From Auricularia sp. M13 (lineage: Eukaryota; Basidiomycota; Agaricomycetes; Auriculariales; Auriculariaceae), in the NCBI GenBank assembly GCA_037042915.1, contig CM073202.1, positions 496,001-560,000 of the forward strand: 64,000 bases of DNA, read 5' to 3'. The notes below the pieces were generated by a model. That model did no database searches and was not told the origin of the DNA. It saw nothing but the letters and a program-made list of their open reading frames with translations. Made by a program: the position numbers and the translations under genes. Below, one piece after another: positions 2,215-64,000 of this stretch (position 1 is the first letter of the stretch; every line of letters begins with the position of its first letter).

Positions 2215-3616
2215 ATGCAGCCCCTATCCCGTCCCAGCGACTCTTGGAAAACGGTAGAGCAGTACGAGCAGAAAGGAAGCTACACCAGTGCTTTCTGGCG
2301 CACAGTACCATTCGACAAGCTCGAGCGCCTCGCGGCTCGTCTGCGTTCAAATCCCAAGCTCAAGTGCCAAGCAAACCGCGAGAAGTACGCGCAAGGCCAC
2401 GAGGCCGTCGTCATTGGTATGTCCTATCAAACCTCAGTTTCATCTTGCAGTTTCTCCAGCCAACTGACATGCCGCTGAATGCGCAGAGCTTCAGTTTTCC
2501 GATCGCGAAATCTGGATTGCGCGCCTCCGAGCTCCCGTGGACGTCTGCGGCGAGACGCCCACGCCCGCCAAGCTCGCCCGGCAGACCGAATGCGACGTCG
2601 CGACTCTGCGCCTCGTGCGCGAGCGGACGACCATCCCCGTGCCCACTGTCTACGCGTATTCCAGCACATCCGACAACGAGCTCGGCATGCCCTATGTTCT
2701 GATGTCTGCCATCGTAGGCTTCCCACCTGAATACTTTGGGTTTGACTACTTGCCGCGCGTTAAACCTGACGATATGCCGCTCCTGGACCGTTATGTCGAG
2801 TCTCTGGCCGATTGCTACTTGCAGCTGAGCGCGATCACGTTCGATCGCATTGGGTCCGTATACTTTGATCCTGCCGATAACTCGAAATATGTGATCGGAC
2901 CTTTGGCAGAGAGTGGCTTGGGACCGTTTGACACGGCTTGGGAATTCTATTCCGCGGGCGCGGAGGATATGGAGCAGCGTTTCCTGTCGTTGCCCCATGA
3001 CACGCCCGAGGAAAGAGGAGACCGTGCTTTGGTTCTCTGGCTTTACAGGCTCGGCCTGGGACTCCTTGCCAACAGCCCCAACAACCGCGGTCCTTTCCTG
3101 CTCTGCCACAACGATTTCGGGATGCACAATACCCTCATCGACAAGGTCTGCCGTCGGTTCAATGTATTGCACCCCCTGTGGCATTCACACTCCCGACGCA
3201 TACAGGAAGGCAACGTAGCCGGCTTTTTCGACTGGCAGAACGCAGCGGCGTACCCCGCCGAGCCGTTTGCGACGCAGCCGTTCGGCCTCACAGACAACCC
3301 CGCGCGCTCGGAGTCCGCCAGCCTCGCGCACTTGCATCGCGCCTTTTCCTCGGCCCTCGCGCGGCTGGAGGACAGCGGCAAATACCCACAGGTCAAGCGC
3401 CGTCTGAGCGAGCTGCACTCGTCTCCGCTGGCGTACCTCGTGGGAAGGCTGTTTGTGCTCATGGCTGGGCCCGATCAGTGCGGGGAGCCGTATGGGGCGA
3501 TGTTGGCCAGGTTTGTGCTTGGTGTGGACGATGCGGCGCCCTTTAAGAACTCTGTTTTGTTCAGGGAATGGTACGCGGACACCATGCGACGGGTTGAGAG
3601 CCGCCGGCCACGATAG
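2215..3616 (+). CDS. APH-like phosphotransferase, copy 1
   Basis: Protein with the aminoglycoside phosphotransferase/choline-kinase fold (APH family, expanded in basidiomycetes). The substrate is unknown. Three exons: 2215-2416, 2487-3145, 3206-3616. The junction codon G|AG restores VVIELQF. The 60-bp second intron (3146-3205) is a multiple of three and has no stop, so it can be misread as coding, but the same intron position is clear in copies 2 and 3. The catalytic loop reads FLLCHNDFGMHNTLID, matching HxDxxxxN with N in place of x1 and D as catalytic base. The Mg-binding loop is GFFDWQNA. The N-lobe strand EIWIARLRAP carries no obvious conserved lysine. It ends FREWYADTMRRVES. Two further paralogs lie at 6.5-7.9 kb and 24.7-26.6 kb; this copy is the only one I see with an intact reading frame. 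Confidence 0.85.
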
Positions 3617-4203
3617 GCACCTTCGCAGACTTTATGTTCGAAGAGAATCGTTCGAAGTGAACCGCCATTGCCAGACAATGTTGTTCTGCCATGGGACCGA
3701 GCAGTTATCTCACGTGAGAGCTATTTCCAATGATTAGTGCTTCTAGAGTCAACGTAAATGTGAGCATCGTCTTGTGCGGATGGTGAGGATGTCTTTAGGG
3801 ATGTCCGCGGACTCCGGAGACTCAGGCGTTTCCAGTGCCCCGCTAAGAATCGTCGTTCCTTAACCTCGGAGAGGCAAAACTAGCACCTATTTCTCATCAT
3901 AAATTTGCCCGCAGGCGTTTGCTCGAGCCTCATGTGGTTCGTGGTGGTCTTGTGCAGGCGCTTACGTAAAGGGCGGGAGTCGGGACGGGCCGACCCTTTT
4001 GTTGGCGCAAGTTGTCCTGGACCACGTCTGAGCCACACAGCTCTTGCTCTTGTCTTGCTCGTCGTTGCCGGCGACCTCGACAGCCTTCCCTTCAGCCGAC
4101 GACTCTATCGACTACCATCGCACAGCGTCTGCCACGTAGCAGGCAGTGTCGCCGCCCTGCTCGCCACCGCCGCCTGACTCATCCCACACCACCACCACCC
4201 ACG
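3617..4203. other. Intergenic; 5' flank of SPT2
   Basis: No gene is supported here. The stretch 4050-4203 is C/T-rich, as expected for a basidiomycete core promoter and 5' leader, and runs into the CCCACGATG start context of the SPT2 gene. Confidence 0.4.
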
Positions 4204-5753
4204 ATGTCGTCGTTCGCGGCGCTGATGCAGCTCGCCGGGCAGCGCACGGCCGAGTCCGAGAGCGCGGTCAAGACGGCGCTGGCGCAGCGCGAGAAGGCGC
4301 TGGCCGAGAAGCGGCGGGCGCAGGAGGAGCGCGAGCGCAAGGAGCGCGAGGCCGAGGCGCGGCTCAGGCTCAAGCGGCTCGAGGACGAGAAGCGCGCCGC
4401 CGAGCGCGAGGCCAAGCGCAAGGAGGAGCTCGCCGCCAAGGAGCGCGAGCGCGCCCGCCGCGAGGCCGAGCAGCGAGCGGCGCTGCTCGGCAAGACTCGC
4501 CGCCCGCCCGCTAGCGGCGGCGGCGGCGGCTGGGGCAAGCGCAAGCGCGAGGACCGCAGCGTCAGCCCCGACCCCGGCACCGTGCTCACGCGCGAGGAGA
4601 AGCGCGCGCGCAAGGAGGCTCTCGAGCTGCGCCGCGCCGAGCAGGCCGACTCCGCCTGGCGCCGCTCCTCGTCGTCGTCGGCGGCCCGCAGGAACGGCAG
4701 CAACGGACGGCGGCTTGCTGGCGGTGCCATCGACGCGCTGGCACCGGAGGGCGCGGCGCCCGTGCTCCCCGGCACGGGCAGCGTCAAGGACCGGCTAGCT
4801 GCGATGCCGCCCACGCTTGTCAAGCTCAACACCGTCAAGCGCGACATGCGCACCATCGACGAGATCATCGAGGTCGGTCTCCAGCCCTTTCATCCATTTA
4901 AATCTGCTAATGCCATTGTGTAGGACCGCAAGAAGCTGAAGAGCGGCGCCACGACGCTCGCCGGCGACGAAGCCAAGTCGTTCGGCGACTGGTTCGGCAA
5001 GGACAAGGCCAAGAAGGAGAAGGAGGAGGCCGAGCGCCGGCGCGCAGCAGCCTTTGCGAAGGCGCGCGCAGCCGCCTCAGGGTCGTCCCCCGCGCCACCT
5101 GCCGTACCCGCCCCCTCCGCTGTTGCCGCAGCCGCAGCCCCAAAGCCCAAGGCCGCAACGTCCGCCGCTCCCTCCCGGAGCGCATCCACCTCCGCTGCCA
5201 ATACCCGTCCTTCTGCTGGTTCATCGAAGGTGGCACCGTCCGCGTCCACATCCTCCACCAAACTGGCATCCTCGTCCTCCTCGTCCAAAGTGCTTGCGGC
5301 TAAAGCGGGCCCGTCGAAGTCGTCATCCATGTCCAAGGCATCTGCACCCGCCCCGGCGAAGAAGAAGCCGCGCAAGTACGACGAGGACCACCTCGACGAC
5401 GAGTCGGACTATGACGACGACGACGAACCGCGCAGCGGCGGCGGGCGCGCGCGCAGGTCGAGCGTGAGCGAGGAGATATGGAAGCTGATGACGGGCAAGG
5501 ACCGCGCGGCCTACGTTGCGCACGATGATGAGGACTCGGACGACATGGAGGCCGGCGCGGACGATCTCATGATGGAGGAGCTGCGCAGGTGCGTCCCGGG
5601 CTTCGTTTCATTATGGTGCTTTGGAGTTGGTGTTGATGCGGCTTGCGTGGGGATAGTGCGCGCGCCGCAAAGAAGGAGGACGCGCTCGCGCTCGCCGAGG
5701 AGAAGCGGCGCGAGGAGGAGAAGCGGCGGCGCAAGATGGCGTTGGGCCGCTGA
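4204..5753 (+). CDS. SPT2: SPT2-like chromatin protein (histone H3-H4 chaperone)
   Basis: SPT2 proteins bind histones H3-H4 and act in nucleosome handling during transcription. Exons are 4204-4872, 4924-5588 and 5657-5753; both introns have GT..AG ends. Residues ~15-100 are a highly charged R/K/E coiled coil with many repeats of ER, KR and EE. A Ser/Ala/Lys-rich low-complexity middle follows, then an acidic patch around DEDHLDDESDYDDDDE. The C-terminus carries the SPT2 signature: SVSEEIWKLMTGKDRAAY, the acidic-aromatic stretch DDEDSDDMEAGADDLMMEE, then the basic, E/R-rich tail ending KRRRKMALGR. In known SPT2 proteins this C-terminal module contacts H3-H4. Family-typical N-terminal motifs ('TVKRDMRTIDEIIE') also match. 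Tail-to-tail with APH-like copy 2. Confidence 0.88.
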
Positions 5754-6514
5754 GCCCGCCCCTTTCAAATTCGTCCCTTTGCTATCGTCGCTCTCCAAAC
5801 TCCGAATGGCTCCTTCACATTCACTCACTCACGATGCAACGATCTTGGGTATTATCATGGTGTCTTGTATCGCAATCGCAATCGCAACTCTCACATATGG
5901 CCTCGTCACGGACATCCTCCAGTCCCAAACAACACACTTCCCTCTATATCATATGCAACCGTCCCGCCGCTCCCGCCCCCACCTCCTTGCCTTTCGTGTC
6001 TACATATGCATACATACGGATACGGCCTTTTGGAATCTGTTTGTCAGGTATAGTATGATAATCGCTTTTCCCCCTTGGTCGCCCTGTAGTTCGGTGCCGC
6101 CAGAGTCTCACTCGCGTGCTCATTCGCATGCTGCGCCGCAACGTTTCTTAATGGCATTTTATCTCTGTTTCAAGTTCTCACTGTCTATGGCGGCGTCGTA
6201 TTCAAGAGAGGAAGACATTATTGATTGGAGGCGATACATCGTGCACGACTCGGAGCTGCGAATTCGGAATAGCCACACATGGCAATGAAGACAACTACCT
6301 CAACGAGCCGAGTAGGCATACACTATCTGTCGTGTTGGTCGTCCTGAATCATAAACCATGTGCAACTATCCCGCAGTCTGACATGCACGTGCAAGGGACC
6401 ATTATTTGAACAACAGTTGAACCCACTCTGAAGGGCGACACATCCTCAACTCCCGAGAACGGTCTGCGCCTCCAAAGGAGCGTACTGCACGTGCTGCTTA
6501 CAGGGCCGAGTGGG
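5754..6514. other. Convergent intergenic region
   Basis: The 3' flanks of SPT2 (+) and APH-like copy 2 (-) meet here. Base composition is more AT-rich than in the genes. Open frames in the track region 5830-6290 have no protein features and overlap SPT2 exon 3 downstream sequence. Nothing else is recognised. Confidence 0.4.
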
Positions 6515-7918
6515 TCACTCCGTACCAGGCGAGCTCTTAACCCGGTTCATGGTGCAAGCATACCATTCCTTAAAAACGACCGAGCTTTTGAAGCGGGACG
6601 CATCCTTCACCCCGAGGACTAAATCGGCCACAAAGGGGGCGTAGGTTTCCTCCTCGCAGTTGTCGGGGCCGTCTATGAGCGGATACAGCCTGCCCACAAT
6701 GTATGCAAGTCGCGAGGAGTGCAGCTGGCTTAGGCGTCGACCGCAGGGGAACTTAGCATTGTGATGTGCGTATTTGGTCTGTTCCAGGCGCTCGAGCGCA
6801 GATGAGAACGCGCGATGGAAGGCAAGCATGTCCGGGTTCGATCTCAAGCAGTCGCTCGTGAAGTCGAATGGCTGGGTCGCGAACGCTTCGGCGGGATATG
6901 CGCCCGCCCCACACCAGTCGACAAAGCCAGTTATCGTGCCATCCTGTCGATGTGAAGTGAGTTATATATATGCTCGGGCTGACGGGAGATACTCCGCAAA
7001 GTACCTTGTCGACAAGGGTATTTTGCATTCCGAAATCGTTGTGGGAAAGAAGAAAAGGTCCTCGGTCATTGGGGCTGTTAGCGAGAAACCCGAGAGCGAG
7101 CCTATACAGCCAGAGGACGAGCGCACGGCCTTCCCTCTGCTCAGGCGTATCGTCAGGCAATGTCAGACAGTGCTGCTCCATATTCTCTGCACAGGTCACG
7201 TAGAGCTCCCAAGCTGAATCGAACGGCCCCAGCCCATTGGACAGCGGTCCGATCACATATTTCGAGTTATCGGCAGGATCAAAGTAGATGGAGCCTATGC
7301 GATCGAACCGGATCGTACTCAGCTGCATGTAGCAGTCCGCCAGAGACTCGACGTAGCGATGGAAGCGCGGCATGTCCTCTGCTTTGATGTCGGGGTACCA
7401 CAAGGAGATACCAATCTGTTCAGGCGTCGTGCCGGCCAAAGCAGACATCATGATATAGGGCATGCCCAGCTCGTTGTCGTAGCGGCTGGAATACGCGTGT
7501 ACTGTAGGCACGGGGATGGTCGTCCTTTCGCGCACGAGTCTGAGAGTGGCTACTTCGCATTCGGTTTGCCTAGTGACCGCAGCAGCCGAGACCGTAATAC
7601 CGCAGACATTGGCAGGAGCTCTGAGGCGGGCGATCCAGATCTCTTCGTCCTCGAATACAAGCTCTGCAGCACAGTAATCAGATAGCTGAACACAGTTAAA
7701 CGAAGGACTGACATACATATGATAATGGCATTGGCACCTTGCGCATACCTCTCGCGGTTTGCGTGGCACTTGAGCTTGACCGGACGCAGGCTTGTCGCCA
7801 AGCGCTCGAGCTTGTCGAACGATATCGTCCGCCGCCAGAAAGCGCAGATATATGATCCGTTCTTCTCATAGTGCTCTGCAGTTTCCCAAGAGTCACTGGG
7901 ACGAACGCTTGGTCCCAT
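6515..7918 (-). CDS. APH-like phosphotransferase, copy 2; probable pseudogene
   Basis: Paralog of the genes at 2215 and 24700, starting MGPSVRPSDSW at ATG 7918. It shares both intron positions: intron 1 at 7664-7716 and intron 2 at 6944-7004. The catalytic loop LLSHNDFGMQNTLVD and the metal-binding loop GFVDWCGAGAYP are intact. However, the last base of exon 1 is T instead of the G seen in copies 1 and 3, so splicing at the conserved site creates TAG across the junction (T|AG). An alternative in-frame donor exists upstream (CAAG|GTGCC) but would remove the strand that follows YAQG. Unless that donor is used, the protein would end after about 67 residues. A complete hAT transposon sits 228 bp upstream of the start codon, inside the likely promoter. 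The family assignment is certain; function is doubtful. Confidence 0.75.
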
Positions 7919-50219: not shown

Positions 50220-50555
50220 GCTCGGACTGTAGGAGCTTCAAGAGAAAGGCAAGGCGCGGATACTTGGTCGAAGGCTGAATGTTGAAACGATGGGCTCTTG
50301 CGATCGCCAGTCGCGCTGTTTATAAGTATGTCCCCAGAACCGAGGCGGCGCCTAGGTATGCTTGTCCTACGACAAACACAAGGCAAAGCAAGGCAAGGCG
50401 GTGGATGCGCGTGCGGCTCCAGGATCGAGGCATTGCCACGCGCGCGCCACTCACAGGCTGCGAGGCGAAACGCAGAGCTCAAGCGCGCCGGCGCTCGCCT
50501 CGGTGGTGGCACTGCCGACTCGCGTTGCAGTTCCGCGTTGGGACACGGTGGCTGC
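50220..50555. promoter_or_regulatory. Upstream region of the P450 gene
   Basis: About 336 bp separate the P450 start from the left end of the long-TIR element. TATA-like sequence (TTATAAG, plus strand 50320-50326, reading CTTATAAA on the minus strand) lies about 100 bp upstream of the start. No gene is supported. Confidence 0.35.
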
Positions 50556-50885
50556 TATGAGTACTATTTGGATCATTTATTCAAACACAACACACACAAT
50601 GATTTTTCCTCACACACTGCAACCTCAAATAAAGCTGATTACCCGACTCATACAGGTCGCCATTAAGGTTTGATGGGAAAAGCTAGCCGAAATCAAAACT
50701 TTTGATATTTTCTGTGTGTGTTGTGCTCGGCCGGTTTGTGGAGGAGCTCGGCCGCTTCCGAAGCTCCGGATGTTCTTTCTAACTCCGCTCACCCTTCGTC
50801 TCCTGCTCTGCACTGTGCCAGAGCGACGCAGACGGCTTATGCATGCGTCGAATGGATTGGATAAAGATCTCTTTGCTACATGACT
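50556..50885 (+). repeat. Left terminal inverted repeat of the 1.65-kb element
   Basis: Inverse complement, with a few differences and one indel, of about 51905-52208. Confidence 0.8.
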
Positions 50886-50981
50886 ACTCGACGGTGCTCC
50901 AACGTTGCTTTATTGGGAGAGAGCGTTGGCAAAGGCCCCCCGAAAATGCCATTACATGTCCCATCCGGTGCACGACCACTT

Positions 50982-51344
50982 TCGGTCCCGTTTATGAGCT
51001 GGAATGGGGTCGGATTCGGTCCCGTTTACCTGGAGGCTCGGAACAACCCGGAGCCAAATTGGCTCCGCGGAACGGCCTGGTGGTTGTTTCGACCAGAAAT
51101 GGCAGGATTATGTCTCTCGGAGCATGAAACAGGTAGGAAAGGTAGAAAAGAGCTCTTGAATGCACCTGGGATGGTAAATAGGGTGATATGCAAGTTCAAC
51201 CTCATTGAGTGGCATGTTCATTGGACTATCCGAGGTCCCCATCTCGGTCCCGTTTAGATGTGACATGGCCTCAAGAAGTTCGGATCTCGGTCCCGTTTAT
51301 ATGGGAGAAAGAGCTTCTGGAGGCCCGATTTTCGGTCCCGTTTA
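50982..51344 (+). repeat. Five dispersed copies of a 13-bp motif
   Basis: TCGGTCCCGTTTA occurs exactly at 50982-50994, 51016-51028, 51244-51256, 51287-51299 and 51332-51344, all on the plus strand. The last copy reads GGTCCC-GTTTAGAT-GGGACC, a short perfect hairpin. The copies lie inside the element's central region. Confidence 0.85.
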
Positions 51345-51904
51345 GATGGGACCTATATGGGAATTTTCGGGGGGCCTGTTGGCGATGTGGGCATGCAAGT
51401 GGGCGAAGCAGGGTACAGCTCACCGTCACCGAGGAAGTCTAGCGTCAAGTTTGGTCTCGACTGCAAGTCGTCCAGCAGGTGTCCTCTCAGTAACTGCTTA
51501 TGTCGCCTGCCTCACCAATGCGCTGCAGCGGCCAGCGGGCTCATCGCGCTCATCTTATGGCGAGTCTGGGTCCCTGGGAGTTGTTGGCGCTGTTGGCCGC
51601 GCGGTGTGACAGACGGCGGCATCACATGGTAGAAATTATGCTGTTCTTGGCCTTGCTCTCGTTCTGAGAGAGCAGAGCGGTTGGGTTTGTCTGCGTCGGT
51701 CTGGTTCTTCATCAAAAGCTGATGGGCATGAACTGATTGATGCACCACTGTACATTCTCGCTCAAGCCCATTTCCAACACGGCATTGTTTTGCAGTGAGG
51801 GAGTGGTTTGAGAAACAGCACACGAACTTCGAACGACAACGTCTTGCCAACTCCAAATCATGGGTGGCAGCACATAGATGCCAGAAATGGGGGTCTTCTG
51901 GGCA

Positions 51905-52208
51905 GAAGAGCGTGTCATGCAGCAAAGAGATCTTGATCAGCCCCATGCAACGCATGCACAAGCCGTAGTGCAGAGCAGGAGACGAAGGGCGAGCGGAGTT
52001 AGAAAGAACTCCGGAGCTTCGGAAGCGGCCGAGCTCCTCCGTTTTGTGGCGTCACACAAACCGGCCGAGCACAACACACACAGAAAATATCAAAAGTTTT
52101 GATTTCGGCTAGCTTCTTCCATCAAACCAGCTTCATTTGAGGTTGCAGTGTGTGAGGAAAATCATTGTGTGTGTTGTGTTTGAATAAATGATCCAAATAG
52201 TACTCATA
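51905..52208 (-). repeat. Right terminal inverted repeat of the 1.65-kb element
   Basis: Mirror of about 50556-50885. Confidence 0.8.
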
Positions 52209-52935
52209 GTATGGCTGCACGAGCTTTGGAGCTTAAAGTTATCGTTGGGAGCACACAGCACTGGGCGTCTGGAGAAGACGGCCGACGCACTCGCGATTGC
52301 GCTGGAGCCTGGACTGCTTGATTGAGTCGTATCTGAGTCATGGCGTGAACGTTGTATGAGCGCCGCGCAGCACTGAGTCCAGGGCTGTATGCTGACTTCA
52401 TCGAGAGCCCAACAGAAGTAAGTAGCCCCATGCTATATAGCCATTGTGGCGCAGAACAGTCCGAGTCCTTCGCCGCCCCGTGAGGCCGATGACTGGGGTC
52501 AAAACGCGCATAAGTCAAGTGGATGCTCGTGTTCATGAATAAGATTATTGTCAGGGTGCAAGGAGGGCAAAGGAACGTTGAAAGTCCGCGAACGCGCTCA
52601 ATCCGGGTCCGGTATTTCTGTGTTCCCGGCCGCCCCCCTCGCTTTCATTCACATATCCATCGCTTTTCAATACATGTGATGGATATCCTCAATTTGGACC
52701 TTCTACTAGTTTCTACTAAGTATATGCGTCTCGACACAGAAGTACTGTATCAGTCACGTGCGCCGCGCGACACAAAGAGGATCGTCAAAGGGCGGCGCAC
52801 TGTGGATGTTCGAGGTTATAATCGTGGATTCGTTCAATCGAGAACAGAGGGTAAATAGTACAAAGAGATTCCAGTGCCATTCATTCATGCACATCGCAGC
52901 CGCCATGGTCCAGCAGTCATCACCAGCTGATTTCA
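52209..52935. other. Intergenic
   Basis: Open frames here (e.g. 52523-52858 +) have no domain. Includes the 3' flank of the START-domain gene. Confidence 0.35.
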
Positions 52936-55897: not shown

Positions 55898-56139
55898 TGT
55901 TAAGCCTGCTGTGCCTTGGGGGTTTGGTTGCAAGGATAGTCGAACGTCCGGGCGCAGAGAACACTCGAACGAACAACTAGAGCCTTCGGTGCGTTATTGA
56001 GCACACCGGCTACGTCGAGTAGCACGACCGAAGGGACCGCGAGCAGCAGAGGACTCAGACGAGTAAGTCGGGCGAGGGAAGAACCCAGAGGCGAAGTCGA
56101 GAGAGAGAGATAGAGCGTGCGAGGGGCACGACTATGTCG

Positions 56140-56150
56140 ATTTCGTAACT
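56140..56150 (-). promoter_or_regulatory. Self-primer sequence at the predicted RNA 5' end
   Basis: The minus strand reads AGTTACGAAAT, starting about 34 bases after the first T of the TATA box, where transcription should begin. It is exactly complementary over 11 bases to the sequence just inside the 5' LTR (63792-63802). Confidence 0.7.
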
Positions 56151-56176
56151 GGGGAGCTAGATACAGAGTCGAGGGT

Positions 56177-56184
56177 CTTTTATA
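56177..56184 (-). promoter_or_regulatory. LTR TATA box
   Basis: TATAAAAG on the minus strand, in GGTATAAAAGACC, about 34 bp ahead of the self-primer segment; the likely promoter of the genomic RNA. Confidence 0.7.
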
Positions 56185-56621
56185 CCTGGGGAGGTGATCC
56201 GATGTACTCGGAGTGTATCCTAGAGACGAAGGAGAGGGGGCCTCAGATCAATAGAGATCGTCGTCATCGGCCGATAGGATGAGTAAGAGCGAGTGGGTAA
56301 GGTATCGGGGGATCGGACGAATGACGAGAGGCGAATGACTAAGACGAGTGGAGCGAACCGGATATGAACACTATCGATACAGTAGGGACAAGGCGAGTTA
56401 GGTGGATGTATGCGAGTAGGGAGAGAAGCTAGAGAAGTGAGGGAGAGGTCTAGAGGTAGAGGACGATGAGGAGAACATATCCCGAGCATATGAACACGAG
56501 GGGAGATAAGCCAGGTATTCGGGAGCTTGGCCGAGTTGACCGAGTTGGCCGAGTGACGTAGAATGACGCCGAGTGATGCCGAGAGCACGTGGGGTCCGCG
56601 GACCGGGGCACGGGCGTAACA

Positions 56622-56636
56622 GTATCCCCCCTTTAC
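56622..56636 (-). other. Polypurine tract
   Basis: GTAAAGGGGGGATAC on the minus strand, immediately before the 3' LTR; the expected plus-strand DNA primer site. Confidence 0.85.
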
Positions 56637-56818
56637 GTCCTGAGCCCACGAAGGACTGCAGCAACGCAAGGTGAATACGAAAAATGAGATAGCACGCACT
56701 CGAGTCCGAATGGGGCCAAAAGATCGGGTCGGGTCGGAACGGGTCGGACGCAGATTAAAAGTGGTTGGGTCGGGAGTTGAATCGTCGAACCACTCTTGTC
56801 TTCTGCCCGCCGCCCACC

Positions 56819-58061
56819 ATGCCGCGATACGAATCGCTCGAGGACGTCGCCGCCGCGTACGACCGCAAGACCGTCGGCGCCGTCATGAGGTCGCTCGAGG
56901 ACGACCCGACGATGGAGGCGCTGATCGCGGCGCACGAGGACGCGAAGCGGACGCTCGGCGGCCTGCAGCAAGAGGCCGTCGACGAGGAGGACCTCGACGC
57001 GATCGAGGCGTTCAGCGCGCGCAGGCGCCAGGCGAAGGCCGAGCTGCGCCTGGCGGCGCAGCGACGCTTCGGGATGCTGGCCGAGCGCGTGGCCAAGATC
57101 GCGGCGGACGCGGGCGCCAAGGCGACGAAGAGCCAGGCGTCGCCGGCGAAGGCGCCGACCACGAGCACGAAGGCGCCGGCGAAGGACGCGAGGGAGACCG
57201 AGTCGCCGCCGAAGAAGAGGCGGGCGTTGGAGGTATGGGTCGAGCTTCCGCGATTGCGGGACGTTGCTAAGGTGCGCTTATTTTGCAGGTCGAGAGCGCG
57301 AAGACGACTCAGGCGCCGCGCAAGGTCGCGCCGAAACCCGCGCCGGTCGCGGTCGCTCGCTCGCCGTCGCTCGGGGCGGGCGAGACGCTCGAGGACGACG
57401 ACGAGGTCGAGGAGATCGCGAGCCCGGTGGCGCCGGCCACGAAGCCCAAGCCCAAGCCCAAGCCGCGCGCAGGCGGCAAGTTCACGGACAGGTGGCCGGA
57501 GGTGCCGTACGGGACGCGGTTCCCGAGTCAGGTAAGTTTTCGGTCGTTCGTGTTTTGCTCGCCGGGGCTGACATCGAGCAGTGCGAGGCCTGCGTCAAGC
57601 GCGGCGGTCCGTGCGTTCGAGCACACCGCTCGAACACTTGCACCGCGTGCAACCAGAGCCGCGGCAAGTGCACGCACTCGGGCAAGCCCTTCGTGCCGCG
57701 CGGCGAGAAGAGGGCGGCGTCGCCGAGTGCGTCGCCCGAGCGCCCCAAGAAGGTGCGGATCGTCGAGGGGACGACGCTGGGGACGAGGGCGGCCGAGGAT
57801 CGCGCGAAGACGGCCGAGCACCGCAGGGTCGTGGAGAACCACGCCCTGTGGACGAACAATTCGGTGCACAACATCGAGCGGATGTTGTACCGGATGCTGC
57901 AGTGGCAAGCGCAGCAGTTCGGCCAGTCGATCGACGAGTCGATCGACGATCCGTTTACGAGCGAGGAGGAAGAGGAGGCCGAGGAGGAGGTCGAGGAGGA
58001 GTCCGAGGAGGAGGAGGACGAGGAAGCGGTCGAGGAAGCGACCGAGGACGCGGACGAGTAG
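56819..58061 (+). CDS. Antisense spliced gene inside the retrotransposon: Zn(II)2Cys6-like protein with acidic tail
   Basis: Lies between the pol 3' end and the 3' LTR, on the strand opposite gag-pol. ATG 56819 is in a CACC-ATG context with a TATA-like ATTAAAAG ~60 bp upstream. Exons: 56819-57232, 57289-57531, 57582-58061; both introns (56 and 50 bp, GTATGG...TTTGCAG and GTAAGT...GAGCAG) are phase 0, giving 378 aa. Residues ~1-110 are charged helices, with a K/P/A-rich linker to ~215. Residues 220-249 are CX2CX6CX8CX2CX6C (C220, 223, 230, 239, 242, 249), exactly the spacing of the fungal Zn(II)2Cys6 binuclear cluster. A Lys/Arg-rich stretch follows, then about 35 residues of nearly pure Glu/Asp at the C-terminus. 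DNA binding and gene regulation are plausible inferences. It could instead act as a gag-like or RNA-binding accessory factor. No homolog was recognised by eye. Confidence 0.8.
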
Positions 58062-58183
58062 GCGATAGGGTAGAGTAGTAGCGGGTGCGACCAAAGTCGC
58101 CCAAAAAATGTAATAAATGACTGTTTCTTGGAATCGAGTGAAAAGCGAGTGAGCGAAGAGATAGCGAGTGAAAAAGCGAGTGC

Positions 58184-61100
58184 TTAAATGTTTTCGAATT
58201 TCTTGAGGATTTGCTGGAACTCTTGATAACTACCGGGAGCGCTGGGATTTGCAGCATAGAAGTCTTGAACTGCTTCTTGCGCATGTTCGAGATTTTCCGA
58301 ACCCATCTCGGTGGTCTCGGGGTCGTCGGGAGTGCCGATGTGACCGATCCAGCGAATGCGAAAACGAAGGCGCGAGTGACGATGGCGATTGTCGATGCGT
58401 ACGCTGAGTACTTCGAGCTCGTACTCCTGCTCGCCGTCGACGACGACGGGCGGAGGAGGTTCTTGACGTTGACCGGGGAATGCTTCTCGAGGGTGGGGTT
58501 CGAGTTGCGAGACGTGAAAGACCGGATGTACGCGAGCGAGGTAGTCGGGTAGGCTGAGGGTGAACGATTGCGAGCTAGGTTGATCGACGATCGGGAACGG
58601 GCCTAGGTAGCGATCGGCGAGTTTGCGAGTGGGCTGCGTCGTCTTGATGTGCTCCGAGAGGACGTAGGCCATGTCGCCGACCTTGAAGTCAGGCGGGGGA
58701 GTGCGTCGAGCATTCGCAGATGCAGTGTAACGTTTCTGAGCGGCAGCGATCTGCTCCTTCAGGACGTCCTGCAGTTCGTGGATGTCGACAGCGAAGTCGC
58801 GGGCGCGAGCAGAGGCAACGTCGCGCTCGGGGTAGACGGAGATGTTCGGGTGAAAACCCTTGTTGGCGAAGAAAGGCGAGACACCAGTCGAGTCGTTCGG
58901 GGTGTTGTTGTACGTGAACTCGGCGAGGGGAAGCAGCTCGGACCAGTTGTCCTGCTCGTAGTTGCAGTAGAGACGGAGGTACTGCTCGAGCGTCTGGTTC
59001 GTGCGTTCGACTTGACCGTTCGCCTCCGGGTGGTGACCCGAGGTGAAGTGCATGGTCATGTTGAGGAGCGAGCCGAGTGCGCGAAAGAAGCGGGAGACGA
59101 ATTCGGAGCCGCGGTCGGTAGAGACGTGCGAGGGAGCGCCATGTTTGGCGAAGACGTGGATGAGGAAGAGACGCGCGAGTTCTTCGGAGGTGATCTTGCC
59201 CTTGGTCGGGACGAAGATACCCTGCTTCGAGAGGCGATCAATAATGACGAGGATCGCGGTGTAACCGTTGGACTCAGGGAGTTGTTCGATGAAGTCCATC
59301 GAGATCGAGTCCCAGTTGCGAAGCGGAATCGGGAGCGGTTGAAGTCGACCGTACGGCTTGTGTCGTCGAGGTTTGCTGCGCCCACAGGTGACGCAGGCCT
59401 GGACGTAGGTACGAATCGAGTCGCGCAGGTCGGGCCAGTAGTACTCGCGGGCGACCATCTTGAGTGTCTTGTTCTGACCCGGATGGCCAGCGAGCGGGTG
59501 ATCGTGCTTTCGCGAAGGATACGAAGGCGACAATCGAGAGCGTTCGGTACGTAGATCCTGCCCTTGAACAGCAAGAATCCATCGTCCGAGGCCGACCAGT
59601 TGATCGCGTCATCGGTGCCGAGTTTCGAGCGAATGTCGAGAGCGAGTTCGTCCGAGTCGTACGAGGCGCGAATGTCATCCCGAATGGACTGAGTGTCCAT
59701 GATCGTGGCTGCGCGAAGGAAAGTCTCTTCAGCATACGTCGCTCGAAGGGAAGCGGCGAACTGTTCTGAAGTAAAAACGGGTCGGAAGTTCTGCGGGTTT
59801 GCGCTGGCGTAGCCACCATCCCCCCTTTTGAGATAGACGTCGTGGCGGCGAGTGAGAGCATCGGGTTTGCCGCCGAGTCGACCGGGTCGAAAGCGAATGA
59901 GGAGGTTGAAGGTAGAAAGGTACTCGGACCAGCGAGCTTGCCGACGAGTGAGCATCTTCGTGGTAGAGAAATACTCGAGGTTCTTGTGGTCCGTGACGAC
60001 GTCTATTGGGGTCTCGGCCCCTTCGAGGTAGTGTCGCCATAGTTCGAACGCCTCGAATATCGCGAGTAGCTCCTTGTCGTGCGTGTCGTAGTTGAGCTCG
60101 GTGGGAGTGAGCGTGCGCGAATGGAAAGCGACGGGGTGAACAGAGCCGTCCGGGAGGACGTGCGAGAAGATCGCCGCGATCGCGTAGTCGGAAGCGTCAG
60201 TCTCGACGACGCGAGGGAGAGCGGGATCGAAGTGGTGAAGGACGGGAGCGCAAGTGAACGCCTTCTTGAGCTCGTTGAACGCAGCGAGGCATTGCGGAGT
60301 GAAGTTCCACGTTGCGGTCTTTCGAGTGAGACGAGTGAGCGGGACGACGATATCGGAGTAGTCGTAGATGAATCGTCGATAGAAGTTCGCGAAGCCGAGG
60401 AACGACTGGATGTCGCGAACGTTGCGAGGAACGGGCCACTCGAGGAGGGTGGCAATCTTCTTCGGGTCCATGCTGATGCCCTCGGGGCTGATGATGTACC
60501 CGAGGTACTCGATGGTGTCAGCATGGAACTCGCACTTCTCGGGCTTACAGAAGAGGTCATTCTCCCGTAGCCGTCGAAGGACATCTCGAACGTGTTCCTC
60601 ATGCTTCGAGGGATCGTCCGAGTAGATGAGGATGTCGTCGAGGTAGACGGTGACCGTGACGTCGAGGAGGTCGGAGAAGATGTCGTTCATGAAGCGCTGG
60701 AAAGCGGCTGGAGCGTTCGTGAGACCGAAAGGCATGACGAGATACTCGTAGGTGCCGTAGCGCGTTCGAAAGGCAGTCTTCCACTCGTCGCCGGCCGCGA
60801 TGCGAACGTTGCTGTATCCGACACGAAGATCGAGCTTGGTGAACTTCTTGGCGGTGCGAAGGCGGTCGAGCGTGGACGAGATGAGCGGAAGCGGGTACTT
60901 GTCCTTCCGAGTGATCTTGTTGAGCCCACGATAATCGACGCATAGGCGAAGAGAACCGTCGGCCTTCTTGACGAAGAGAACCGGGGCGCCACCCGGGGAC
61001 GACGAAGAGCGAATGTGTCCTTTGCTGAGGTTATCCTGAATGTACTCCCGAAGCGCGAGTTGCTCGGGCTCGGAGAGCGAGTAGATCGGACCGGATGGGA

Positions 61101-61952
61101 GAGGCTTGCCTTCTTCCATGTCGATCTTGAGATCGTACGGCCGATGTTCAGGGAGTCGATTCGAGGCCTCCTTTGAGAAGACGTCGAGGAACTCGTGATA
61201 ACACTCGGGGATGCCTTCGCCGGTTTCCGAGGCCGGGTTGGCAGACGCAGAGCGAGCGGGCACCGATGGATCTCGAATGTAGATGGCCGAGACCATCGAG
61301 CCGCGAAGTCGACGAGAGGTGTCGAAGGCTGCGGCGCCGATGATCTTGATGTCGACGCGAGCAGCGGCCGCGCGAAGGGCGGTTTCGTCCATCGGCGGTT
61401 CGGGAGGCAGAGTACGTGGCGCGGGAGGAGGTGACGACGGAGTCGGAGGATCCGAGTCGAGCGAAAACCCAGGGACGAAACCCGAGGGATCCGAGGGCGA
61501 GACACGAGTGGGGAAAGAGATGCGGTGATGGAACCAGTCAATCCTAGGATTGTAGCGGGCCAACCAGCGGTATCCCAGCACTGCAGAGCAAGTCGGATCT
61601 AGAGTGGTGAGGAGGAAGTTGATGATCATCGAAGTTCCGCAAGGGAAGCGGACGGGAAGCGACACGTATTTGGAGATAACACCGCGATAGGAGCCGTCGA
61701 AGAGCCGAAGGCGTAGCGGTTGATCGAGAGACTTTTGAGGGAGTCGAAGACTCTCGGCGAACTGAGTATCGAGGAACTGATCTTCGGAGCCGGAGTCGAC
61801 GAGTGTGCGAAAGGATGGGACAGCGTCGGAGGAAAGGACGACGATGAGAGCGTCTTGATCGGTGAGCGCGGCAGCGTTCAACCGAGTGTAAGGCATCTTG
61901 GGCTTGACGCAGTTGGCCCTAGATGCCCGTGGGGAACTGCCCGTTAGTTTTT
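58184..61952 (-). CDS. pol: Chromovirus pol polyprotein (PR-RT-RNaseH-IN-chromodomain)
   Basis: Open in the -1 frame relative to gag from the A-rich site at ~61950. Aspartic protease: TLVDSGSEDQFL. Reverse transcriptase: LRLCVDYRGLNKIT, the AFRTRYGTYEYLVMPFGLTN block, and the catalytic YLDDILIYSDD. RNase H: VVETDASDYAIAAIFS and VTDHKNLEYF. Integrase: an HHCC zinc domain (HPLAGHPGQNKTL...CVTCGRSK), the catalytic core with SMDFIEQLP, HVSTDRGSEF and the E of HPEANGQVERTNQ. C-terminus: chromodomain, YELEVLSVRIDN...RIRWIGH...ENLEHAQEAVQDFY. A one-base offset near 59505-59512 puts the integrase and chromodomain in a different frame from PR-RT-RNaseH, so this copy as read cannot make a full polyprotein. 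A read or assembly error could mimic it. Confidence 0.92.
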
Positions 61953-62267
61953 CGCTTCCGCCGGGGCAGAAGCGGCGGCGCCCGAGGGAGCGGGAGCCGG
62001 CGTCGAGGAAGTCGCGGGTTGAGCCTTAGCGGCGCGACCCTTCGACTCGCGATTGTGAGCGGCCTTGCGGCACTCGGACGCGGTGTGGCCGGCATGGCCA
62101 CAGTAGAGGCAGAGGTTGTTATTGAGGCGACGGCGTCGTTCGGCGTCGTTGAGCTTGCCGTTCGAGTTGAGGTTCTTCGCGACGTCGTCCTTCGACTTGG
62201 TCGTGGTCTTCGAAGACGAGCGGGCCGAGGTCGAGGACTGACCCCTCGAGTTCGAGTGGTTGTTCGA

Positions 62268-62298
<31 letters not shown>

Positions 62299-63617
62299 GA
62301 GCGCGCGTTGGACTTGGTGTTCGATCGGGAGCCCGATTGAGGCGTCGCGGTCGAGGTGGTCTTCTGCGCTTTTCGGGGTTCGTTCGCGTGCTCGAGAGCT
62401 TGCTCGTCCTTATCGATCCAGTAGTTGGCGTCGATGCTAAGAGCGAGCGCAGCGAGTGGCGTCAGAGAAGCCGGGTGTTGAGCTACTTGAGCAGCGAAGA
62501 CAGATTTGATGCGGCGAGGGAGCCCGCGATAGAATTGCGAGGCGAGTGCAGCGTCGTCCCAGCCGAGCAGTTTGGCGTATTCGTCGAACTGGAGCTTGTA
62601 GCGGGCGACCTTGCCGTTGTCGGCCATTTGCAGTCGTCGAATCTTGACTTCGGCGCGTTCGCGTTCGTTCGTGACGCCGAAGGTGATCGTGAGTTCGTTC
62701 TTGAATTCGTTCCAGTCTTCGAGGAACTCGTAACCGGGAGGCGGATTCGGGACGAGAGGAACGTAGCCGCCCCACCATTCCTTCGCCCGACCCGAGAGAT
62801 AGGTCGCGGTGAAGAGAATCTTCTCGCGGGACGTCTGGTACTTCCGAGGGTTGGCGAGGAAGTAGGTTTCGCAGTCGATGAGGAATCCGCGAAGTTTGTT
62901 GGCGTTTTCGCCGTCGAATTTGTCGGGTTTGGCGGCGTCGATGCGAGAGCCGCTGTCGCGGTCGACGAAGTAGACACGAGGGACGTTGTCGTGTTGATCG
63001 TGGAATTGTCGTTCGCGATCGACGTCCGAGTCGTAGCCGTCCGACGGAGGGTCGAAGGGAGGTCCCGGGGGACCAGGAGGATCGTTACCGCCACCACCGC
63101 CCCCACCGCCCCCACCTCCGGGAGGAGGGTTCGGAGGATGCGAGCCGTGCGAGTGGTGCGAGTGGTGCGAGTGGTGCGACGAGGGCGAGGGAGCACCTCG
63201 ACGACCACCACCGCCACCGCCGCCTCCGCCGCCTCCGCCTCCACCGCCGCCACCTCCGCCGCCTCCTCCGCCACCCCCGCCGCCACGCCGGGGCGTGTTA
63301 GGGGTGCCGGATGGGAAGAAGCCGCGGAACGACGAGGAGTGCTGCGAAAAGCGAGGAGTCGAGCGAGAGCCGGTGTACGGAACGAGCGCGAGAGGGTGTC
63401 GAGAGCCGAGCGAGTGAGTCGAGGGATGCGAAGGCGATCGCGTCGTGTGACTTGAGGGAGGGTAGGAACCGCTCGGGTCCGCGCGTAGTGTGGACTGGGC
63501 CGGCGAGAAACGCGAGGTGTGAAGCGAGCCGGAGAGAGTGTGTTGCGAGAGGATTTCGTCATCATCGTTCGGCGGTTGCGAGTGCCGAGATGATCCGAAG
63601 CGGCTAGTGCCCGACAT
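61944..63617 (-). CDS. gag: Chromovirus gag
   Basis: Structural protein of the virus-like particle. First ATG of the frame at 63617 (MSGTSRFGSS), 557 aa; the frame is open further up to ~63776 but without an ATG, and an ATG at 63772 lies in another frame. N-terminal part Ser/Pro/Gly-rich with about 30 consecutive glycines (plus-strand 63201-63290), an SHH repeat and a second Gly run. The capsid-like region contains FDGENANKLRGFLIDCETYF, ATYLSGRAKEWWGGYV and FGVTNERERAEVKIRRLQMA. A CCHC knuckle, CLYCGHAGHTASEC, sits near the end. The last codons are GCG AAA AAC TAA, a candidate frameshift site into pol. Confidence 0.9.
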
Positions 63618-63791
63618 CGAGACTGATGGCGAAGGCGTAGCCGGCTGAGGAGGTTGTTGGTCGCGAAGACGAGCCTGACGACGGGCTTCGCGAAGGATAG
63701 CGTCGGGGAGTCGAGTAGAGGATGAGGTTCTTCCTGGTTTCTTCTGAGATTCTGTCGAGTCCCAAAGGCCATACAACTCGAGCGGAGCTCG

Positions 63792-63802
63792 AGTTACGAA
63801 AT
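63792..63802 (-). other. Primer-binding site of the self-priming type
   Basis: The minus strand reads ATTTCGTAACT two bases inside the 5' LTR edge. It does not start with TGG as a tRNA primer site would, and is complementary to the putative transcript start at 56140-56150 in the LTR copy. Confidence 0.65.
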
Positions 63803-63804
63803 AC

Positions 63805-64000
63805 TGTTAAGCCTGCTGTGCCTTGGGGTTTGGTTGCAAGGATAGTCGAACGTCCGGGCGCAGAGAACACTCGAACGAACAACTAGAGCCTTCGGTGCGT
63901 TATTGAGCACACCGGCTACGTCGAGTAGCACGACCGAAGGGACCGCGAGCAGCAGAGGACTCAGACGAGTAAGTCGGGCGAGGGAAGAACCCAGAGGCGA
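63805..64000 (-). repeat. 5' LTR, partial (cut by the window end)
   Basis: Matches 55898-56094 except for one base in a G-run (four G against five). The remaining ~528 bp lie beyond the window. Confidence 0.92.

Follow-up and report, generated by a model that had tools for sequence, protein, structure and literature searches.

A predicted three-exon antisense gene for a Zn(II)2Cys6-like protein in a Ty3/gypsy element of Auricularia sp. M13 and in related elements

The element and the gene on its opposite strand

The window, by which we mean the whole 64,000-nt stretch of DNA that was analysed, contains a Ty3/gypsy element whose gag-pol reads on the minus strand, together with a gene that reads against it on the plus strand between pol and the 3' LTR. 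The features, with coordinates and strand, are as follows.

55898-64527, gag-pol on minus: Ty3/gypsy element (window copy), 8630 nt (8.63 kb), its last 527 bases past the window end
55898..56621, minus: 3' LTR in the gag-pol orientation, TG..CA ends
56622-56636, minus: polypurine tract of the element, within the 5' spacer of the antisense gene
56622..56818, plus: 5' spacer of the antisense gene, with a CT-rich stretch and CCACC ahead of the ATG
56725-56773, plus: three GGGTCGG motifs around the TATA-like box
56754, plus: TATA-like ATTAAAAG
56819..57232, plus: exon 1, charged N-terminus, 138 codons
57289..57531, plus: exon 2, basic and proline-rich linker, 81 codons
57582..58061, plus: exon 3, 159 codons and stop
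57582..57671, plus: six-cysteine array CX2CX6CX8CX2CX6C followed by THS, opening at the first codon of exon 3
57777..57917, plus: predicted long helix after the cluster, exon-3 residues 66-112
57957..58058, plus: acidic tail, about 33-34 residues
58112..58117, plus: AATAAA polyadenylation-like signal
58184..59533, minus: pol end, with integrase, SH3-like region and chromodomain homologue, pol stop at 58184
59056..62025, minus: first part of pol (stop-to-stop frame), with protease, RT and RNase H
61944..63806, minus: gag frame (PF03732, 4.2e-14) with a CCHC knuckle seen by eye
63805..64000, minus: 5' LTR, cut by the window end and reaching 64527 in the contig

The element has the Ty3-type order gag-PR-RT-RH-IN between LTRs. 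On the minus strand gag, RT, RNase H and integrase exceed their Pfam cut-offs, and the protease (PF08284) scores 20.0 bits against a cut-off of 20.3. An end-motif search gave LTR lengths of 724 and 723 nt, the pair being 99.45% identical over 732-733 nt, and a 5-bp target duplication (ATCCC) lies outside the element. In the window copy pol is interrupted between two frames, and a one-base difference is found there in 13 of the 19 other copies. The designation of the carrier as a chromovirus in the earlier note was partly upheld: the chromodomain model PF00385 did not match the window pol end up to E 1, but it recognised the pol end of a sibling family (family B; 1.3e-8), and with 44% identity between the two across 119 columns we take the window pol end to be a probable chromodomain. 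Elsewhere in the window, a palindromic unit of about 1.65 kb (50555-52209) with long, inverted, nearly perfect arms resembles a foldback or long-TIR DNA element.

The three exons of the antisense gene join into a CDS of 1137 nt, or 378 codons and a stop, with introns of 56 and 50 nt predicted from GT-AG borders in the sequence. As pol ends at 58184 on the minus strand and the LTR lies at 55898-56621, the gene sits between the two with no overlap of pol, occupying the 1.56 kb that separates the pol stop from the 3' LTR. The gene model proposed earlier is thereby confirmed, as is its exact cysteine array: six-frame translation of the window yields a single Cys6 array, whether exact or general spacing is used, and second-order Markov sequences of window length yielded none in 30. 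Among the 19 genes that we aligned, window included (L031 is outside the alignment), all keep the GT..AG intron borders and all six cysteines, and all carry the AATAAA signal 47-50 nt past the stop.

The predicted protein runs from a charged N-terminus through a basic/proline linker to the Cys6 cluster, a basic stretch, the predicted helix and the acidic tail, the last close to the 35 or so residues first described. The Zn(II)2Cys6 (GAL4-type) cluster has the spacing CX2CX6CX5-12CX2CX6-8C, and the window array falls within that range. Profile searches were less favourable to the identity first proposed, and the suggested search with the Zn_clus model missed its threshold. With the whole protein, Pfam up to E 10 gave no Zn_clus match, the sole match (E 9.4) being meaningless, and no other regulator domain; with the isolated 47-aa cluster piece, Zn_clus (PF00172) reached 14.2 bits against a cut-off of 21, one of five Pfam families that all fell below cut-off, Copper-fist (14.4 bits) included. 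A genome scan with PF00172 gave 68 rows, none of them at a locus of the window element's family, family A, when compared by eye. We then compared with solved structures a profile made of six clusters: two from family A and one each from family B, a third family (family C) and the genes L045 and L046 described below. LAC9 came first (E 0.018), followed by LEU3 (1.5), a pheromone (1.7), and Pho7 and another yeast regulator (4.9 and 5.5); four of these five matches up to E 10 we take to be fungal Zn2Cys6 regulators. In an AlphaFold2 single-sequence model the helix block had a pLDDT of 58 at its start and 80-90 thereafter (mean 67 overall), and the cluster block scored 46-48 in one such model and 65-76 in another, neither of them confident there. 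Because the Pfam score is below threshold and the profile matches LAC9 at E 0.018, we call the predicted protein Zn(II)2Cys6-like, which it is by cysteine spacing, outside formal membership of the family.

The 5' spacer may function as the promoter of the antisense gene. The TATA-like box and the three GGGTCGG motifs around it are each present in 18 of the 18 copies that have the spacer, window included (L036 is without the region). In 18 aligned copies, positions 56631-56818 carry 5.0 substitutions per kb, the lowest of ten regions and next to 5.7 in the RT half of pol. Zn(II)2Cys6 proteins bind DNA at CGG half-sites, and CGG forms four direct repeats at spacing 2 in the spacer (simulated P 0.002, a post hoc value with 39 tests per region in three regions). 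The family C spacer has just one such repeat, and CGG half-site totals in the LTR show no excess over simulation. We consider the GGGTCGG/CGG direct repeats a candidate binding site and a post hoc lead.

Purifying selection on the cluster exon and a divergent block

We searched the same genome (52.1 Mb in 14 contigs) by DNA, which gave at least 43 matches, with the best 40 of 57 candidates scored. A protein search with exon 3 returned 57 rows, and 46 were counted as separate family A loci once seven distant rows, and four more that were tiny or second pieces, had been set aside. Twenty of the 46 loci, the window's included, were read as 10-kb loci, and the multiple alignment comprises 19 genes, window included, L031 being omitted owing to its insertion. 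LTR pairs were comparable in 15 of the 20 copies and are 95.6-100% identical, four of them at 100%, so several insertions are recent. RT lies in the antisense geometry within 4 kb of 33 of the 46 family A zinc loci and within 20 kb of 39, and no locus has RT in another geometry within 4 kb (56 RT rows tested, from the best 150). Conversely, the gene is found within 4 kb of 35 of 48 family A RT loci and within 20 kb of 41, the other seven being without it at that distance. Most family A copies therefore hold the gene in the position that antisense ORFs (aORFs) take in plants, between pol and the 3' LTR. At one locus (L022, C5:4215439) the exon-1 match falls in an open frame of 21800 aa, which suggests a masked or unsequenced run adjoining that copy.

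To measure selection, changes in the 19 other copies relative to the window copy were classed as nonsynonymous (N) or synonymous (S), each distinct change being counted once with no tree used, and for the null each change was placed at random among sites matching it in base and CpG context. Exon 3 has 25 N and 43 S changes against 47.5 and 18.5 expected, a ratio of 0.22; none of 2000 simulations reached this synonymous count, and no stop change was seen where 2.0 were expected. This is comparable to pol, whose N/S values are 0.25 and 0.40 of expectation. Reading exon 3 with a shift of one or two bases, or on the opposite strand, gave 3.2, 1.8 and 1.85. Exons 1 and 2 both stand at 0.61 of expectation (P 0.022 with one stop change, and P 0.07, respectively). 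The dN/dS comparison that the earlier note had proposed thus speaks clearly against neutrality for exon 3, but exon 1 passes it weakly.

The pattern of small indels is similar. Across 19 copies exon 3 has no 1-2 nt indel in 9120 aligned nt, compared with 26 in 12,160 nt of exons 1 and 2 and 112 in 95,305 nt of pol and gag with its leader. Relative to the window, the exon-3 indels are a loss of 3 nt in 18 copies and of 15 nt in one, so that the ORF looked for in other copies is free of frameshifts in exon 3 in 19 of 19. Exon 2 is shifted in three of the 19 and clean in 16; exon 1 has a frame-changing indel in 12, is clean in six and partial in one; and all three exons together are frameshift-free in only five. 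Introns carry 66-98 substitutions per kb versus 25-38 in exons.

Recurrent 1-2 nt indels in exon 1 (window 56945, 57068 and other places) were seen across copies L026-L044. Near a GCGAAG/CTTCGC-type motif, picked after looking at the indels, lie 15 of the 20 exon-1 indels of this size (13.6 versus 0.78 per kb). The excess at the motif is 5.3 versus 1.1 in polC and 1.45 versus 0.76 in the RT half, and no indels lie near it in exon 2, exon 3 or gag. Copies whose LTRs are identical, L029 and L043 among them, have exon-1 shifts too. These indels could reflect either a mutation hotspot or an assembly or systematic read error. An extra intron within exon 1 was considered for the frameshifts and rejected in favour of the motif, as no donor-like GTRNGT was found by eye in 56935-57070.

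Divergence is unevenly spread along the element. Mean synonymous distances from the window copy (divided by 19 throughout, and hence somewhat low where fewer copies aligned) are 0.014 in the RT part of family A pol and 0.018 in gag, rise to 0.035 and then 0.083 towards the chromodomain end, and stand at 0.109, 0.041 and 0.053 in exons 3, 2 and 1 of the zinc gene. When sites variant in at least three of 16 long copies were collected, 103 of 134 fell in 56824-59282, in mosaic patterns that at sight do not come from a single copy tree. From the distances and the mosaic sites, old chromodomain-zinc haplotypes appear to have been reshuffled on a younger backbone.

Related genes in other LTR families

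Family B is 89-90% identical to family A in RT at three long loci, with two partial pieces at one further locus at 90 and 81%. Each of its four zinc loci lies downstream of such an RT and reads antisense to it, three of them within 4 kb and the fourth at 17.8 kb. The cluster at L049 reads CX2CX6CX13CX2CX6C, and its CX13 exceeds the Zn(II)2Cys6 range. In a single comparison, with L049, the zinc exons of A and B were 32% identical over 66 aa (E 8e-4).

Four of the seven distant exon-3 rows were read. Cys6 clusters of the family A kind are present at L045, L046 and L048, and L047 has no such cluster. L045 (C1:9395600-9396004) and L046 (C8:3479717-3480157) are single-copy genes, neither of which has an RT in the expected place, judged by eye, among the best 150 of 237 RT candidates; they are possibly a host source, or domesticated copies or relics. 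By eye, an AG border immediately precedes the first cysteine as CAG in family A, L045 and L046 and as AAG in family B, and in family C one Pro codon separates the two.

Family C, to which L048 belongs, has 28 zinc loci. A complete element of 4199 nt (4.2 kb) is nested in L031 at 2535-6733 (C10:1999627-2003825), with LTRs of 479-480 nt that are 99.8% identical and a 5-bp duplication, CTCAC. It has a sense chromodomain ORF (PF00385, 1.2e-9) and, between this ORF and the 3' LTR, the zinc gene in antisense. No RT was detected: of its 19 frames of at least 110 aa, the six searched, the longest included, match only Chromo at Pfam E 0.1, and none of the RT matches listed falls inside the element. The association of the two genes in this non-autonomous family is close, with a chromodomain ORF in the same geometry within 4 kb at 25 of the 28 zinc loci and a zinc gene within 4 kb at 25 of the 25 chromodomain loci. 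In five of the 28 loci the zinc exons show 28 N and 37 S changes, an N/S of 0.32 relative to expectation, and two family C chromodomain ORFs show 94 differences over 774 nt, 59 of them at third positions, with no stops. Blastn of the family A internal part against the nested element gave nothing at E 1e-3, and the A and C LTRs gave short matches alone, at E 0.15 or worse; family C is therefore not a simple deletion of A.

An RT family 58% identical in RT had no Cys array in any of six frames in the slot of the one copy searched (L050), where a chromodomain-like pol end is visible by eye. Scanning viral contigs with exon 3 gave 158 pattern stretches, none of which was confirmed. Within this genome, the predicted zinc gene is a module common to several LTR families.

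Possible roles and known systems

The earlier note had proposed that the element carries a regulator. The gene behind that proposal is real: its structure can be read in the element, it recurs in family A and the sibling, it is under purifying selection, it is paired with a chromodomain ORF in family C, which is non-autonomous, and its anatomy is regulator-like, whereas any role on the element is inferred. Our preferred explanation, held with about even confidence, is an accessory chromovirus gene for a nuclear, dimerising zinc-cluster DNA-binding protein that would act in trans to control the element's expression or silencing. A promoter of its own next to the 3' LTR would drive transcription against gag-pol, followed by splicing; because the genomic RNA holds the introns in antisense, they would stay in it and survive retrotransposition. 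The product, predicted to bind zinc and DNA, to enter the nucleus and to dimerise, would have element DNA or chromatin as its putative target, and the direction of regulation could be towards expression or silencing. Joint divergence and joint retention with the chromodomain point to a role at chromatin, where we prefer transcriptional control or anti-silencing to target choice. That family C, in which no RT was found, keeps a gene of the same kind suggests a role for the protein that serves the elements themselves.

More tentatively, the sense chromodomain and the antisense multi-exon zinc protein might form a mobile two-gene module that is reshuffled between elements, outpaces the polymerase in diversification, alone is enough to define a successful non-autonomous family and sets expression or insertion. 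Its products would then be a self-encoded chromatin reader and a DNA-binding regulator.

An integration-site cofactor, in which the zinc protein and the chromodomain together choose or open target chromatin in autonomous and non-autonomous elements, is a possibility that we consider unlikely. It would account for the retention of both genes in family C (25/25 chromodomain loci), for their standing as the jointly most diverse parts (0.083 and 0.109 versus 0.014 for RT), for the mosaic of 103 of 134 shared variant sites in 56824-59282, and for the fall in A-B identity from 89-90% in RT to 44% at the chromodomain end and 32% over 66 aa in the zinc exon, but this pattern is also compatible with a regulator that recognises the chromatin of the element itself. 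We are rather more doubtful of a silencing suppressor or nucleic-acid chaperone that acts on element RNA and not DNA. The basic stretch and the Cys cluster could bind RNA, and retroviral accessory proteins include ones with RNA transport and other roles (passages of PMC7264820); the cluster profile, however, weakly favours DNA-binding regulators over RNA-binding knuckles, and the acidic tail and predicted helix suit a regulator better.

A captured host zinc-cluster gene, carried as a passenger with no role for the element, seems improbable. The single-copy L045 and L046 share the cluster type and the AG border, and their existence makes a host origin possible, but N/S selection within the element family weakens the passenger view, as does the recurrence of such genes, in one geometry, across three LTR families. 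A frame open by chance on the antisense strand, or an antisense RNA that regulates without coding, to which the exon-1 frameshifts in 12 of 19 copies might point, is scarcely credible given that selection on exon 3 is frame-specific (two shifted plus frames and one minus frame give 1.8-3.2) and that this exon is without 1-2 nt indels.

Among known systems, the preferred reading, a regulator acting on the element, resembles the GAL4/LAC9-type proteins in domain, with which the window protein shares the spacing of its cysteines, a helix predicted behind the cluster and the profile match (LAC9, E 0.018); it differs in that its cluster is below the Zn_clus cut-off and lies mid-protein, after an intron. 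HBZ of HTLV-1 is a bZIP protein with a spliced form and a promoter role for the 3' LTR. It comes from a human retrovirus and has a different DNA-binding domain. The likeness is one of function, that of a nuclear protein encoded on the antisense strand of the provirus (a passage of PMC11963269), a nuclear location being predicted for the window gene.

Plant LTR elements offer a parallel in layout. As the earlier note had stated for some plant Ty3/Gypsy lineages, they carry antisense extra ORFs, and these occupy the same slot in the same orientation as the window gene (passages of PMC7264820, PMC11963269). The same passages give Grande its own upstream promoter and a nuclear protein, predict DNA binding for TRP28 and describe some Retand elements as non-autonomous; Retand differs in being non-chromovirus, with TRP28 restricted to flowering plants. 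The term zinc is absent from the main text of both papers by term search. In fungi, brtn is an additional antisense gene of Boty in Botrytis cinerea, described in 2011 (passages of PMC7264820, PMC8365987), and a CHROMO domain is present in a Boty-like element (a passage of PMC4227169). In both cases a fungal LTR element carries an extra gene that reads against gag-pol, along with a CHROMO domain, a probable one in the window element; the host is another one, and the likeness is one of orientation and element type. With plant antisense genes at this place and brtn in fungal Boty, the kind of gene is already known, and the claim that no fungal case had been described holds in a narrower form: within the PMC literature searched, a scope that most subscription papers fall outside, we did not meet a multi-exon zinc-cluster antisense gene or a chromodomain-plus-zinc family, and a term search of the main text of PMC3248453, PMC2864245 and PMC3411680 found neither 'antisense' nor 'zinc'.

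Reviews call the functions of the antisense extra genes of LTR elements unknown (passages of PMC7264820, PMC11963269). The present case adds to that group a gene with a recognisable domain architecture and strong selection on the cluster exon, and family C provides a natural reduction experiment, in which no RT was found and the chromodomain and a gene of the same type are kept. Together, architecture, selection and reduction make it possible to test the role of such a gene directly in a fungus, through assays of DNA binding and expression.
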